A stretch of 42,339 bases of DNA, from positions 1-42,339 of the IMG/VR virus record IMGVR_UViG_3300036901_000039, one strand, 5' to 3'. This DNA is from a virus. The position numbers were made by a program, and so were the translations under genes. Positions 2,675 to 25,246 of the stretch are shown here, in pieces; position 1 is the first letter of the stretch; the number at the start of each line of letters is the position of its first letter. A model generated the notes under the pieces. It worked only from the letters and a program-made list of their open reading frames with translations, was not told the DNA's origin and searched no databases.

Positions 2675-3646
2675 CTACGGTCCCGCGCTAGAGCTTAATC
2701 TAGTGCTTAAAAGGTTTCGGATAGCTGTGTCTTGAGTGATCGCTTGCGCTTGCGCGAATTTGACCGCTAAAGTAGCGTTCTGAGCTAACATACCAGAATA
2801 GAAAGGATCTCTATAAATCAGATTCATAGAGTAACCATCTTGGTTGATGTGAGTAATAGCCTGTTTACCGACTACAGTGTTGTAGTAGATATCGTTGCTA
2901 TTTTTAGACGCTGCACGTGCAACTGGAGCTTCAGAAGAAGTAAGGATACGTATGTTAAATACAGATCCGTACTCAGACGGAAGTGCCGAAGCGTTAGTAG
3001 GATATGCCCATTGTGACAAGAAGCCAGATCCTGTTAAACCGTCGAAATCCGTTTGCAATTCAGTTGAACTCAACATGAAGTATGCAGAACGAACGGGTCC
3101 GGTTCCAAAACGATCCATTCCTTCAATACCTGACATAAATTTGTAGGCATTGTTAGTGTCTAAGGTTGTAGCAACTAGGGAAAAATCTGATACCCCTAAG
3201 TTGGTGGGATTGTCACCGTTAGAACCGCCGCCCGCATTGATTTGGGAAGCCGCAGAAACGATGTAGTCGCGGAGGATCAAATCCTCGGCCTGACGCATGG
3301 CAACGGCAAGTCTTTCTGAAATCCAGGCTAATATGCCTTCTTGATCTTGGAGAATTACTTGTTCGTTAATTATGCAGCCAGTACCGAAAAACGCCATTTG
3401 AGCGTCGATAATATCGCGCTGTGGCACTTGGGCTGGGGGATCGATCCCAGAATTGCCCAATTGGACAGTGGGTGGAACCAATGCTCTCGGACGCATAAAA
3501 CGCGTTGTAGTTCCGCCGTTGGCAGGAGCTGACACTTTGTCGCATGTGAGAATATAGTTCATTGTGGGGGTTGGCACATAGAGCATCGCAGGCGCGAGCG
3601 ACTGCAAGATCAAAGGGCCAAGATTACCCGTGGTAGTAATTGACAT
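2675..3646 (-). CDS. Major capsid protein (N4 gp56-like family)
   Basis: This 323-residue protein is recognisable as an N4-gp56-type capsid protein. Residues ~45-135 contain TTRFMRPRALVPPTVQLGNS and the stretch IDAQMAFFGTGCIINEQV, followed by a helix with RLAVAMRQAEDLILRDYI that matches the spine helix region of HK97-fold proteins. Other family-like segments are QAITHINQDGYSMNLIYRDP and a hydrophobic C-terminus. Length and position upstream of decoration genes and downstream of the scaffold fit. AGGTAAACA precedes the ATG as ribosome binding site. Confidence 0.9.
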   Translation of the reverse strand: MSITTTGNLGPLILQSLAPAMLYVPTPTMNYILTCDKVSAPANGGTTTRFMRPRALVPPTVQLGNSGIDPPAQVPQRDIIDAQMAFFGTGCIINEQVILQDQEGILAWISERLAVAMRQAEDLILRDYIVSAASQINAGGGSNGDNPTNLGVSDFSLVATTLDTNNAYKFMSGIEGMDRFGTGPVRSAYFMLSSTELQTDFDGLTGSGFLSQWAYPTNASALPSEYGSVFNIRILTSSEAPVARAASKNSNDIYYNTVVGKQAITHINQDGYSMNLIYRDPFYSGMLAQNATLAVKFAQAQAITQDTAIRNLLSTRLSSSAGP

Positions 3647-9256: not shown

Positions 9257-9742
9257 ATGTTTAAAGTAATGTACTTAAGGAAGCAGAAATATTTAACTCT
9301 ATATGAAAGAATTTTTATTGAAGACCACCTTCGTAAAGGACTTAGAGCTTTTTCTATCGCAAAATTACTTGACCGTCCTGCCCTTACTGTTTACAGAGAT
9401 ATAAAACTAAATTCTGTAAACGGCGTCTATAATGGACTGATTGCTCACGAAACAGCTCTAGCCCGTAAGAAAAAAAGCAGCGATGCAAGGAGAACCAAAT
9501 TTTCAGAATCAGATATTCAATACATGAGAGATAAACTTAAAGAGGGGGCAACTCTTGGTTACTTATGTTCAGAATTTAAAATTTCCACGAAAACACTTTC
9601 AAAGTTACTCAATCTGGAAAAGTTAAAACCGGGGCCAAAGCCAGACACACTTGGAATTACTGACCGCCTTTGTGCCCTAGAAGATCAAATGAAGTTATTA
9701 TTTGAAATCATCAAGGAACTTCGGAATGCGACCATCCATTAG
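9257..9742 (+). CDS. Double helix-turn-helix protein, first copy
   Basis: This 161-residue protein has two helix-turn-helix regions. The first, residues ~14-50 (LTLYERIFIEDHLRKGLRAF then IAKLLDRPALTVYRDIK), resembles the HTH_38 domain at the N-terminus of IS30-type transposases. The second is at ~83-118 (SDIQYMRDKLKEGATLGYLC). The C-terminus is LCALEDQMKLLFEIIKEL. It is a tandem paralogue of the next gene but lacks the transposase catalytic domain, so it is probably a DNA-binding regulator. ATG 9269 is an alternative start. Confidence 0.75.
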   Translation: MFKVMYLRKQKYLTLYERIFIEDHLRKGLRAFSIAKLLDRPALTVYRDIKLNSVNGVYNGLIAHETALARKKKSSDARRTKFSESDIQYMRDKLKEGATLGYLCSEFKISTKTLSKLLNLEKLKPGPKPDTLGITDRLCALEDQMKLLFEIIKELRNATIH

Positions 9743-10196
9743 ATTCACATTTGAAGAGCGTAAAAAAATTGAGGGATGGGTCATAGAGGGGAGAACCTGG
9801 GCCTTCATGGGGGATCAATTAAATAGGCACAAGAAAAGCGTTTACAATGAAGTTAAGACTCGCTCCCAAAATGGAATTTACTTAGCTGAAGTTGCACAAC
9901 AAATGGTTGCGGACGCGCAAGCATCTAGAATAAGAAAACTGCAAAAAAAGTTTAATAAAGATGAAGTTGACTACATTCTATCAAGAAGGAGAGAGGGAAT
10001 AGGATCTCGGATAATAGCAAGTGAAATTAATACTTCCGATAAATCAGTTTTACGCATCATCAAGAAATTTGGGGAAAACGAAATAGGTACCATTCCAGTA
10101 ATTGCGTTGCCCGAAAGAGTCGGGGCGTTAGAGCAGCAAGTTACATTATTATTTGAAATCATCAAGGAGATGAAATATGCAAGTCAAAAAAACTAG
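9726..10196 (+). CDS. Double helix-turn-helix protein, second copy
   Basis: The protein has 156 residues starting MRPSIRFTFEERKK. AAGGA lies eight bases upstream, inside the end of the first copy. The same architecture is present: an IS30-like HTH (FTFEERKKIEGWVIEGRTWA), a second HTH (DEVDYILSRRREGIGSRIIA) and the same C-terminal LLFEIIKE helix. The 3' end repeats the DNA of the first copy's 3' end, including the ribosome binding site. It probably pairs with its paralogue as a dimer or acts on a related site. Confidence 0.75.
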   Translation: MRPSIRFTFEERKKIEGWVIEGRTWAFMGDQLNRHKKSVYNEVKTRSQNGIYLAEVAQQMVADAQASRIRKLQKKFNKDEVDYILSRRREGIGSRIIASEINTSDKSVLRIIKKFGENEIGTIPVIALPERVGALEQQVTLLFEIIKEMKYASQKN

Positions 10197-10905
10197 TGAT
10201 TATACAATATTCAAAAAGCTGCCTGGCAATAGGGAGATAGAGCCTGGTAATCTCAAGAAGATCACCGCCTCTCTAAAAATGAATAACATGCTTGAGCTTA
10301 ATCCTATATTGGTAGACAGCGAAATGCGCGTTATGAACGGGCAGCATCGCCTAGAGGCCGCTAAGAATCTCGGCATCGAGGTTTACTACAAGGTGGATGA
10401 AAATATCAAGTCCTCCGATCTTCTTTTATTGCAGACGCAAAAGTCATGGACACTTGAGGACTTCGTTAGGTATCACGCCGCACAAGGCATTAATGCCTAT
10501 GTGGATATTGTAAAGTTATCCGAGAAATACTCAATTAGCATAACTGAGGCTATCCAGTACCTTGGCATTGGTAGAGGAGGCAAAGGTTATATCGCCCTAA
10601 AAGAAGGAAAAACTACTGAGAACATTAAAGAGAAAGAAAACGACCTTAAGGATAAGATATTTAAAATCGAACAAATTAGACGCTTGATTGAAGAAAAGAC
10701 AATCGGAGAAAAAAAGTACTTAATTTCTAGGTATTTTACGAGATCCTTACTAGCTCTTATAGATAACTCATCTTTTGACTTTGATGTCTTTATCCAAAAG
10801 CTTAATTTAGGGCTTGGCAAGGTTCACCATTGCACTACAGTCGATCAATATTACGACATGTTCAAGGCCATTTATAACGTAAGAAATCAAGATCCTATAG
10901 ACTGA
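10177..10905 (+). CDS. ParB/sulfiredoxin-like nuclease-domain protein
   Basis: The protein has 242 residues. Residues ~15-70 form the ParB N-terminal fold, with LKMNNMLELNPILVDSEMRV then MNGQHRLEAAKNLGIEVYYK; the NGQHR box is the family signature. A helical middle (VDIVKLSEKYSISITEAIQY) resembles the ParB HTH region, and a charged C-terminal half follows. Phage proteins of this type act in partition, transcription or DNA nicking. Its start lies inside the second HTH gene, so the three genes are coupled. The role here is not determined. Confidence 0.75.
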   Translation: MQVKKTSDYTIFKKLPGNREIEPGNLKKITASLKMNNMLELNPILVDSEMRVMNGQHRLEAAKNLGIEVYYKVDENIKSSDLLLLQTQKSWTLEDFVRYHAAQGINAYVDIVKLSEKYSISITEAIQYLGIGRGGKGYIALKEGKTTENIKEKENDLKDKIFKIEQIRRLIEEKTIGEKKYLISRYFTRSLLALIDNSSFDFDVFIQKLNLGLGKVHHCTTVDQYYDMFKAIYNVRNQDPID

Positions 10906-13249: not shown

Positions 13250-14575
13250 TTATCTAAATCCGTAGTCATTGGGATGTCTCCAATTAGGATCATTTGGTTT
13301 AAGAGCACCTAGCGTCTTAGCGTCAAAATCAAATCGCTGCGGCCTATGTGTATTGACGGCGTATCGAAGAGCGTCAACTGAGTGATCATTTGCCTTCAAA
13401 GGCTCGTCTTCGCCTTTCTCTACACATTTTGGATGCCAGACATAGCCTTGTATTTCTCTTATCAAATTGGTGCATTCAGAGCATATAAATAGCTGCCCGT
13501 CTTTTAGAAGGGATATTGTCTTAACGATACCGTCATTCACTTCGTTATCTGCGTTAACAGGATGCATACCAAGACGCTGCAAATCAATACGGAAAGAAGC
13601 TGCGCTAGGATCTAGATAGATAGATTTAACGCTATACGGTTCAATAAAAGCCCGCAGGTCATTAGCAAACTCCGAGCTGGACTTTTGATATCCTTTCTTC
13701 TTGTAATCCCAATAATACTCTTTCTCTACCCACATCATTGGCTTTTCTTGCGTATACTTCCCACAACAAACCCCAATGAGAAGAGCACAGAACGCATTAT
13801 TTGTTCCATAGTCAACCCCAACGATCCAATAATCTGCGGCTCTTGGTGGCTTGCTAACAACGTGGATATCAGTGTCAAAGAAATCAAATATCGCGCCTTC
13901 TGCAAGTGTCCATTCCCCTAAATAGTTTCTCTTATAGAATACGCCAGACAAGCTATTGCGTATTCGTTCCTTGTAGGATTCCTCAACGTATGGGTTATCC
14001 TCAAGCTTAAACTGCATTTCGTAGTAGTTAGGATCGCCGTCTCTTGCTTTATCTATCCACTGTTTGAGTATATGTGTAGGATACGAGGGATTCATTGTGC
14101 CGAACATGAGCGAATGAGGATTAGAGATACGAGTAGAGAGCATTTCAATAATGACGGGTGGAAATAAAGTCATTTCGTCGGCATATACGATAGACATCGT
14201 TTTGCCCTGTATCGCGCCGACTGCGCCACTGTCTTTAGCTCCGACTGTGCTAATGCGCTTTAATCGCCCTTGCGAGTCTACAAACGTGAGTTCGCGCGAG
14301 CCGGACATCCATTTACAAAATGGCCTAAATATAGCTAGCGGATCAGCTTGACCTATGGGCTTTGGCTCTGTTATGAGGCGAATGACGTTGTCGTAAATAG
14401 TGCTAGATGTATGGCCTATAAACCATATCTGGCTATCGGGGCAGTCATTTACCGCTTGCATTACACGGAACGTATTTGCTATAGTTTTGCCTGATCGCAC
14501 CGAGCCGTGCGCTAGGTTAATCTTTGCGGTAGACTCCATTATGTACTTGACTTGCTTAGGTGCTAGTGTTTGCAT
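13250..14575 (-). CDS. terL: Terminase large subunit
   Basis: The protein has 441 residues. The N-terminal ATPase has Walker A GSVRSGKT at residues 24-31 and a Walker B-type MSIVYADEMT near ~130, followed by a FGTMNPSYP coupling motif. The C-terminal RNase H-like nuclease has its acidic residues in WIVGVDYGTNNAF, IYLDPSAASFRID and NDHSVDALRY. This is the PBSX/Terminase_3 type. It translocates and cuts concatemeric DNA at the portal. AGGAT before the ATG is the ribosome binding site, and the divergent plus cassette starts only 20 bp away. Confidence 0.92.
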   Translation of the reverse strand: MQTLAPKQVKYIMESTAKINLAHGSVRSGKTIANTFRVMQAVNDCPDSQIWFIGHTSSTIYDNVIRLITEPKPIGQADPLAIFRPFCKWMSGSRELTFVDSQGRLKRISTVGAKDSGAVGAIQGKTMSIVYADEMTLFPPVIIEMLSTRISNPHSLMFGTMNPSYPTHILKQWIDKARDGDPNYYEMQFKLEDNPYVEESYKERIRNSLSGVFYKRNYLGEWTLAEGAIFDFFDTDIHVVSKPPRAADYWIVGVDYGTNNAFCALLIGVCCGKYTQEKPMMWVEKEYYWDYKKKGYQKSSSEFANDLRAFIEPYSVKSIYLDPSAASFRIDLQRLGMHPVNADNEVNDGIVKTISLLKDGQLFICSECTNLIREIQGYVWHPKCVEKGEDEPLKANDHSVDALRYAVNTHRPQRFDFDAKTLGALKPNDPNWRHPNDYGFR

Positions 14576-17861: not shown

Positions 17862-17994
17862 GCAAACTACAAAGTTTTGGGAGAAAATCTATAAGGCCAA
17901 AGAAGCGTGTAAAAACAGCGGTCACAGCATCCTCGATCATTTCGTGGATATCAACGAAATGATCGAAAAATGCCTTATACCGCTCAAAAGATAG
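17851..17994 (+). CDS. Very small helical protein
   Basis: This 47-residue frame begins MTCEQTTKFWEKIYKAKEAC and ends IEKCLIPLKR. Its start lies inside the previous gene and has ATGGAGTAAAAA before it as a good ribosome binding site. It fills what would otherwise be a gap in a tightly packed operon. Confidence 0.55.
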   Translation: MTCEQTTKFWEKIYKAKEACKNSGHSILDHFVDINEMIEKCLIPLKR

Positions 17995-23788: not shown

Positions 23789-23849
23789 AGAAGTGTATCC
23801 ATAGTCTCTTTACAATCTTGACTGCTTGCCTGATTGTTATGGTACTCTA

Positions 23850-23877
23850 CCCCTTAGTCCCTGCTAGGGGGTTTTTT
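23850..23877 (+). terminator. Terminator of the recombination operon
   Basis: CCCC(T)TAG pairs with CTAGGGG around a 6-nt loop and is followed by six T. It lies 61 nt after the YqaJ stop codon and overlaps the end of the convergent gene 23864-24025. Confidence 0.7.
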
Positions 23878-24025
23878 CTTTTAGCTGCTTACCCAAATCT
23901 CCCAACAAGTGAAACGCCGCCCTTAGCTTTCGGTTATTTTTTTTATCTCGGGCATCTTTCTGGTGTTTTTCCAGCTCTCTCAAATCGCTTATAAACATAT
24001 CAGTTTGAATTAGTTGCGCACTCAT
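23864..24025 (-). CDS. Small basic helical protein
   Basis: The protein has 53 residues from MSAQLIQTDMFI. TTAGGAGGATTT before the ATG is the best ribosome binding site in this region; the longer frame upstream has none. The sequence DLRELEKHQKDARDKKNNRK and HLLGDLGKQLKEK is helical and charged. It is alone on the minus strand between plus operons. The function is unknown. Confidence 0.6.
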   Translation of the reverse strand: MSAQLIQTDMFISDLRELEKHQKDARDKKNNRKLRAAFHLLGDLGKQLKEKTP

Positions 24026-24086
24026 AAATCCTCCTAAGTAACCTATTAAAAACATATAAAGGATGGAGAATAGCAATGTTTGGGAA

Positions 24087-24116
24087 TTGCCACAAATGAA
24101 AAATTTAAGATAGGAT
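24087..24116 (+). promoter_or_regulatory. Probable promoter of the replication initiator
   Basis: TTGCCA (24087-24092) and TAGGAT (24111-24116) are 18 bp apart. Transcription from here would give a leader of about 180 nt that contains the structures at 24135-24298. Confidence 0.45.
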
Positions 24117-24128
24117 ATCGGTATAAAT

Positions 24129-24190
24129 AAAAAACCCCGAGCTATGAACCTCGGGGTCAGGAGCCTAAGAGAAAACCAATCTCTGGTAAC
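24129..24190 (-). ncRNA. Candidate antisense RNA against the initiator leader
   Basis: On the minus strand CCCCGAG pairs with CTCGGGG (24150-24156 with 24135-24141) and runs into TTTTTTATTT, a textbook terminator with no minus gene upstream. A -35-like TTGACC (24219-24224) and weaker -10-like TATGTG (24197-24202) lie 16 bp apart just upstream. The predicted RNA is about 60-75 nt and complementary to the 5' half of the initiator leader, including the left arm of the large inverted repeat. Confidence 0.45.
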
Positions 24191-24298
24191 GGACATCACA
24201 TAAACGTCAGTTATCTTAGGTCAACGTATAGCAAATACGCAAGAAAAAAGAAAACTTTAATTTCTTGGGTTCTCTTAGGCTCCTACAACCAATAGGAG
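24160..24298 (+). promoter_or_regulatory. Structured initiator leader with ribosome-binding-site switch
   Basis: A 14-bp perfect inverted repeat joins GGAGCCTAAGAGAA (24160-24173) to TTCTCTTAGGCTCC (24270-24283). The last bases of the right arm also form CTCCTA-N7-TAGGAG (24280-24298), which buries the AGGAG ribosome binding site of the initiator. The two pairings are mutually exclusive. Inside the loop a further dyad TAACxGAC...GTCxGTTA is present. The region may also contain the replication origin. Confidence 0.6.
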
Positions 24299-24304
24299 TT
24301 TACC

Positions 24305-25246
24305 ATGTTTTCCAGACCCAATTATACCCAAACACCCAATGAATTCTTCGACGAAATCGCTATGACCCTTAAAGAGGGCGAATTGCGAGTTCTTCTTGTC
24401 ATAATGCGCCAAACATTTGGGTGGGGCAACAAAAGATGGGATCGCATAAGTCTTTCCCAGTTCACCAAAAAGACGGGAATGACCGAGAAATCTGTTATTC
24501 GATCTCTAAAGACCTTGATAGAAAAAAAACTGGTGACCAAGCACCAAAAAGGTCCTTCAAGTAACCAAGAAAGCTGGTACAGTTTAATCGTCGAAGACCC
24601 CTCAGAATTCGAAGATCCTATAGTGATTCAAAATATTTTTACCCCCTGTCCTAAAGACAGGCCCCCCTCTGTCCTAAAGACAGACACAAAAGAAACTCTT
24701 CCAAAAGAAAGAAAAGAAAGCTCGCTAGCGCTCGCAAAAGAAAAGTCGCCTTCGGCTCCTCCCCCCCCTTCTGGCCACTATAAAGAAAAATTTGAAGGAA
24801 AGGTTTGCATAACAGAAGAAAACTTTGATAGGCTCTTGAAGAAGTTTGGGTCTGAGGAGCTTTTGGATGAGTATGCCGAGAAGCTTTACAGGTGGAGCTT
24901 CAATAACGAGAAGGCATTTAAGGTCAAAAAGCGTCATGACATGGTTTTGGAGGACTGGATCGAGAAGGATAGGAAGAGCGTCGCAGCCAAGAAGCCCCAA
25001 GAAGGCACTTTAAATGCCCCACAGCAAGAAAACTGGCGTCTAAACCAGGAAGTAGTCCAAGAATTGAAGATGTGCGGTAAAAAGGTCGCTGAAGGGCTAA
25101 ATTGGTTTTATAAGTTCCATGTACTCAAGGATAAGAACCGTCAGGACTTCGATCTTTCAGGCCTAATAAACCATAAGGATTTCTGTTTGCAGCTAGAAAA
25201 ACACCTGAAATTGCACATCGTCAAACATAGGTTCCCTAATGGGTAA
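24305..25246 (+). CDS. Phage replication initiator, O-like N-terminal domain
   Basis: The protein has 313 residues. Residues ~5-95 match the phage replication protein O N-terminal winged helix: TQTPNEFFDEIAMTLKEGEL, RVLLVIMRQTFGWGNKRWDR, then FTKKTGMTEKSVIRSLKTLI. A Pro/Ser/Lys linker follows, then a helical C-terminal half (residues ~165-313) that could recruit a helicase loader. Such proteins bind the origin, often inside or near their own gene. No helicase gene is seen, so the host helicase is probably used. The ribosome binding site is sequestered as described for the leader. Confidence 0.8.
   Translation: MFSRPNYTQTPNEFFDEIAMTLKEGELRVLLVIMRQTFGWGNKRWDRISLSQFTKKTGMTEKSVIRSLKTLIEKKLVTKHQKGPSSNQESWYSLIVEDPSEFEDPIVIQNIFTPCPKDRPPSVLKTDTKETLPKERKESSLALAKEKSPSAPPPPSGHYKEKFEGKVCITEENFDRLLKKFGSEELLDEYAEKLYRWSFNNEKAFKVKKRHDMVLEDWIEKDRKSVAAKKPQEGTLNAPQQENWRLNQEVVQELKMCGKKVAEGLNWFYKFHVLKDKNRQDFDLSGLINHKDFCLQLEKHLKLHIVKHRFPNG

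Follow-up and report, generated by a model that had tools for sequence, protein, structure and literature searches.

The initiator leader and its inverted repeat

The window analysed here is the whole of a 42,339-base virus record from an uncultivated phage that encodes a terminase, a portal, a major head protein, a RecE-like nuclease, and a RusA-like resolvase. Its replication initiator is a lambda-O-like protein of 313 aa (24305-25246, plus strand; phrog_678, PHROGs E 2.4e-22). Given that a plus-strand terminator found in our scan (23849-23878) closes the upstream RecE operon and separates it from the initiator, the initiator needs its own local promoter. A divergent gene of 53 aa (23864-24025, minus strand) also lies upstream; it has no PHROGs match and a 71% identical relative in another of the phages described below, G001.

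The leader of the initiator carries a perfect inverted repeat, which the preliminary description gave as 14 bp; the repeat is there and is one base longer, 15 bp, pairing AGGAGCCTAAGAGAA (left arm, 24159-24173, plus strand) with TTCTCTTAGGCTCCT (right arm, 24270-24284, plus strand). It is the sole perfect repeat of at least 14 bp with arms no more than 150 bp apart in the whole 42 kb, and none of 2000 dinucleotide shuffles of the left region reached its score. We found no further copy of the arms in the window at up to one mismatch. The runner-up among short inverted repeats in the window, TCGATCATTTCGT at 17933-17966, has 13 bp with the arms about 8 bp apart.

The right arm has a second potential partner. 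As proposed before, its CTCCT can instead pair with the AGGAG ribosome binding site: CTCCTA (24280-24285) is complementary to TAGGAG (24293-24298), and the Shine-Dalgarno (SD) sequence AGGAG (24294-24298, plus strand) stands 6 nt ahead of the ATG at 24305. The whole hairpin is larger, with 10 bp formed by 24276-24285 and 24293-24302 (TAGGCTCCTA-N7-TAGGAGTTTA, 24276-24302, plus strand; -10.4 kcal/mol). The right arm can therefore pair either with the left arm or, by its 3' part, with the SD.

On the minus strand, an intrinsic terminator (24124-24158) lies directly beyond the left arm, with a stem running from 24158 to 24133 (GACCCCGAGG-loop-CTCGGGGTT) followed by the T-rich TTTTATTTAT; it has the most GC pairs of the terminators found in the 4 kb that we scanned, in keeping with the strong minus-strand terminator noted earlier. 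A putative antisense promoter (24213-24242, minus strand) has a -35 box TTGCGT (24242-24237), 18 bp, and a -10 box TAAGAT (24218-24213). Together, the conserved -10 box and the terminator would set the ends of a putative antisense RNA of about 84 nt (24124-24207, minus strand), complementary to the 5' portion of the initiator leader. It is predicted to form three hairpins: one at the 5' end, one in the middle, and that of the terminator. The left arm would be the target of this RNA, and the right arm has the same sequence as a segment of it. The transcript had been described as carrying no gene, and we likewise see no plausible gene there: the minus-strand reading frame in this region opens with a GTG at 24199, and its likely start is the ATG at 24025, which has an AGGAGG site and lies downstream of the terminator. 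Rfam gave no match at the gathering score, only sub-threshold matches to sRNAs on the minus strand.

A putative sense promoter (24085-24116, plus strand) consists of a AATTGCCACAAATG box, with CAAATG at 24093-24098, placed exactly 12 bp from the -10 box TAGGAT (24111-24116), with a predicted start at about 24123. Both promoters are matches to consensus in the sequence only.

Related leaders with unrelated arms

We found the same leader in 14 further records, 13 IMG/VR contigs and one MAG contig, making 15 with the window. The related records were gathered via TerL; TerL and alignments found some relatives, and the window's initiator or RecE as lone query found none in viral contigs. No close relatives were detected among cultured phages by DNA or initiator protein, aligning TerL to bacterial genomes revealed no prophage, and a DNA comparison of the window leader with the phage and plasmid collections returned nothing. 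An exact search with the window's own inverted repeat returned no match either, as expected because the arms are hypervariable.

The closest relative with a replication region, G001 (L019), has the element in the syntenic place. Its intergenic region, which follows RecE and the 53-aa divergent gene, contains a minus-strand terminator and an SD hairpin ahead of a different initiator, and its arms are CAGGAGAAAACACCC (left) and GGGTGGTTTCTCCTG (right). Three more phages (G004, G005, and G010) have the same architecture in the syntenic place, yet their arms are different again. These leaders have in common a minus-strand motif, AACGnnAGTGATCTTA on the plus strand, that reads as a -10 box TAAGAT with TCTTGnnn 18 bp upstream. 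Ten further members came from scanning with this motif and then without it. Five of the 15 (G017, G034, L099, G040, and G037) were found through the inverted repeat itself and are not independent proof of it. In four records (G006, G007, G008, and G012) the element is absent at the corresponding place.

A DNA pattern scan of genomes yielded one real member, L354, on a small contig binned with an archaeal MAG (reverse strand of contig JAHFRS010000046.1, MAG nzgw58), which is probably misbinned phage DNA. In its leader the left arm occurs twice, as AGCCCCAGACCC and as GCCCCAGACCC. Two other candidates were set aside: in L025 a 12-bp repeat near RecE (14407-14533) comes without a terminator or initiator, and in L100 arms beside a terminator and an O-like gene come without a recognisable SD at the right arm.

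The transcription signals recur across the set. An antisense -10 box, TAAGAT or TAATAT, is found at the matching place in 14 of the 15 leaders, usually accompanied by TCTTGnnn 18 bp upstream of it and by CACTnnCGTTC on the downstream side, and all 15 have a minus-strand hairpin with a T-rich tail, the T tract being weak in G030. Reading of the leaders puts the antisense target within the terminator hairpin, in its loop or its stem, for most members (e.g., G010, G004, G005, G034, L099, and G037); for the window, G001, and G014 it is placed immediately 5' of this hairpin. These positions rest on reading since the automatic hairpin scan merges neighbouring hairpins. On the sense strand, CAAAT(G/A)-N12-TA-rich hexamer, with identical 12-bp spacing, is present in eight leaders.

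Two further motifs were seen in these leaders. A near-palindromic box, ATTTGnnnCAAATG, stands exactly 12 bp 5' of the TA-rich -10 box in the window (24085-24116) and in G001, G004, G005, G010, G013, G014, and L160; within the sense promoter it may serve as a site for an activator or a repressor, and there is no good second copy of it in the window. Between the antisense -35 box and the right arm, L160, L161, L157, L021, and L354 have a conserved AAGATAAAAGAAAACTT(TAA), which could serve the antisense promoter as an UP element or act as a motif in single-stranded RNA.

The arms themselves are unrelated in sequence, except that G013, L160, and L354 share theirs. Because MAFFT could not align unrelated arms, arm pairs were counted in Python. 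Of 210 arm pairs over the 15 leaders, 197 are Watson-Crick, 9 are G-U, and 4 are mismatched; the G-U pairs point to RNA. The arms thus change completely between related phages while complementarity is kept (206/210), the compensatory pattern looked for in relatives. Pairing scores for a phage's own left and right arms range from 14.0 to 20.6 (mean 16.9), as against 9.2 (sd 1.8) for foreign combinations; high foreign scores arise mostly among the three members with shared arms and in a few GC-rich pairs. When partners were permuted, p was about 0.0085 for the five phages found by synteny only (minimum possible 1/120) and 5e-6 for eight phages, and for the 13 distinct members 0 of 200,000 permutations did as well. 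Left arms match the right arm of their own phage, but not the right arms of other phages.

The genes downstream of these leaders belong to several initiator families. They are O-like in the window and L160, DnaD-like in G001, G005, and G013, similar to a DnaD/DnaC fusion in G010, phrog_11233-like in G014, and phrog_4707-like in L099. The downstream gene has a weak HTH match in G034 and no or barely any match to known initiators in G030 and G040. L160 and G013 even have arms in common and differ in their initiators. Given this diversity, it is the leader that is conserved, and the comparison of sequences argues that the control module is retained while the initiator is swapped.

A predicted antisense-RNA switch on translation

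We interpret the element as a cis-encoded antisense-RNA switch on translation of the initiator, a reading that the comparative evidence makes likely (probability about 0.85). The initiator mRNA would start near 24123. In the ON state, the left arm would pair with the right arm, leaving the SD uncovered so that initiator is made. The antisense RNA, running from about 24207 to 24124 on the minus strand and complementary throughout to the 5' portion of the leader, would bind the left arm; the right arm, identical in sequence to the antisense RNA, would thereby be released and fold over the SD, giving the OFF state. The level of antisense RNA is expected to rise with phage copy number, yielding negative feedback on replication. 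We infer that both RNAs are made, and likewise the direction of control and the role in feedback.

Folding models are consistent with this switch. In all 15 leaders, the sequence running from the right arm to the start codon forms a structure that covers the SD (about -9 to -18 kcal/mol). The mean cost of opening the SD is 7.2 kcal/mol, compared to 2.6 for 158 other genes in the same records (p 3e-8). With the native left region, the cost is 3.0 kcal/mol; it is 7.5 when the left region is missing or blocked and 6.5 when the left region comes from another phage (Wilcoxon p 0.001 and 0.0003). In the energy models, the two helices are mutually exclusive in 13 of the 15 leaders, which adds to the pairings, the covariation, and the conserved promoter and terminator signals as what was computed here. 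Both helices are partly compatible in G030 and G010, and G037 and L354 show no gain in the models from the native left region. Several leaders show little difference between ON and OFF once 45 nt of coding sequence is modelled, because the SD pairs with the coding sequence; the result for the switch therefore depends on the 3' end that is modelled. The whole window leader (fold z -7.1) places the left arm on the right arm and leaves the SD unpaired in the centroid, and in the leader from 24230 on, which lacks the left region, the SD is hidden. Covariation, antisense promoter and terminator signals, and folding thus favour the original proposal that occupying the left arm would let the right arm hide the SD, and the models with and without the left region bear out its folding prediction. 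A further match had been proposed, between AUUGGUU in the antisense RNA and AACCAAU in the loop of the SD-hiding hairpin. The match is present, but an equivalent was not seen in the hiding loop of G001, the only relative compared, and it may be incidental.

It is improbable, though less so than the other alternatives, that the antisense RNA acts mainly through a duplex cut by RNase III or through transcriptional interference, the SD switch being minor or absent. Full complementarity to about 84 nt of the leader would suit such a role, and lambda OOP acts on cII mRNA via RNase III (PMC12197685). What this leaves unexplained is the right arm, which is identical to the antisense RNA, pairs with the left arm, and runs into the SD hairpin in 15 of 15 leaders. 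Inverted repeats between divergent promoters are typical operators, and the repeat could in principle be a pair of DNA sites for a phage repressor or initiator rather than an RNA structure; both sites would then change along with the protein. We consider this very unlikely, since the window has no other arm copy at up to one mismatch, the arms contain G-U pairs, and operators explain neither the complementarity to the SD nor the minus-strand terminators. We give equally little credence to transcription attenuation, in which antisense binding would induce a terminator ahead of the initiator as in pT181 and pIP501. The layout is alike, with an antisense RNA, a pre-emptor arm, and a hairpin just before the gene (PMC5703833), but in the leaders that we read the SD hairpin is followed directly by the spacer and the start codon, with no U tract. 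Finally, although a single 15-bp repeat in 42 kb could rarely arise by chance, a functionless repeat is hardly credible given the permutation tests and given that repeats of other sequence occupy the same place in 14 other records.

Relation to plasmid and phage control systems

Antisense control of copy number is a hallmark of plasmids. The translational switch proposed here closely resembles the rep/RNAI system of the staphylococcal plasmid pSK41 in the predicted length of the putative antisense RNA, in its target in the leader, and in a released segment that sequesters the RBS, here in silico. RNAI of pSK41, about 83 nt long, is complementary to the rep leader about 100 nt upstream of the start, and when it binds, a hairpin is proposed to form that sequesters the RBS, with no attenuation of transcription; in pPR9, a pSK41-type control region drives a swapped initiator domain (PMC5703833). 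In contrast to pSK41, the element belongs to phages, has hypervariable arms, and precedes O-like, DnaD-like, and DnaC-fused initiators, and in several members the target lies, by reading, inside the antisense terminator hairpin. The window and L160 leaders have no DNA match in a plasmid collection. Judging from the models, the element would work like the pSK41 switch, yet that comparison showed no homology to the control region of pSK41 or RepA_N plasmids, the window's initiator is O-like, and we do not class it as a member. Competing leader helices also decide Rep synthesis in pT181, with repC and an RNAI of 87 nt, and in pIP501, with RNAIII (PMC5703833). Control in these plasmids is by transcription termination; the phage leaders that we read, in contrast, have no U tract before the initiator.

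Among phages, lambda OOP RNA is likewise a short antisense transcript with its own terminator, and its place is immediately before gene O. Its antisense target is cII, and it acts through RNase III cleavage, whereas the putative transcript here lies within the leader, with the 53-aa divergent gene upstream. To our knowledge, no SD switch is described for lambda O. In phage P1, repL is co-transcribed with kilA. Antisense control had been called rare for a lytic-looking phage, but there is a published precedent: the P1 lytic replicon (repL) is under antisense RNA control according to the title of Heinrich et al. 1995, cited in PMC9948254. As far as that title goes, P1 is similar in having a phage lytic initiator under antisense RNA, putatively so here, and differs in the family of its initiator; with it as precedent, the broad idea of an antisense-controlled phage replicon is not new. 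The literature that we searched contains no paper describing the element, and as far as searched, what appears to be new from these sequences is the element itself, hypervariable and portable between initiators.

We also considered whether these are phage-plasmids. In the seven records searched for them, no integrase or ParA was found, and we set this idea aside; a lone ParB-like gene is present. In the window, two proteins with HTH_38-like domains and this kind of ParB-like protein (phrog_12305) lie in a row at 9257-10905 (plus strand), without ParA.

Comparative sequence evidence thus places a pSK41-like translational switch before the initiator in many lytic-looking phages. A more tentative reading, to which we would give somewhat less than even odds, is that phages without a detectable integrase or ParA run their lytic replication in a plasmid-like manner through a portable antisense module, with swapped initiators, and that the fast-changing arms define incompatibility or superinfection groups. 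If so, phages that share arms (G013, L160, and L354) would block one another's replication, and no such effect is expected between phages whose arms differ, a prediction of sequence-specific exclusion between co-infecting phages. Apart from this reading, the predicted switch poses the question of why a lytic phage should hold back the replication of its own genome, and the leaders provide a ready set of about a dozen natural antisense/target pairs that appear orthogonal.

Elsewhere in the window, the major head protein (2675-3646) has a match in G001 (L018) and in G010 (L030) that is broken into several pieces by gaps of hundreds of bases or longer, possibly reflecting intron or intein insertions.
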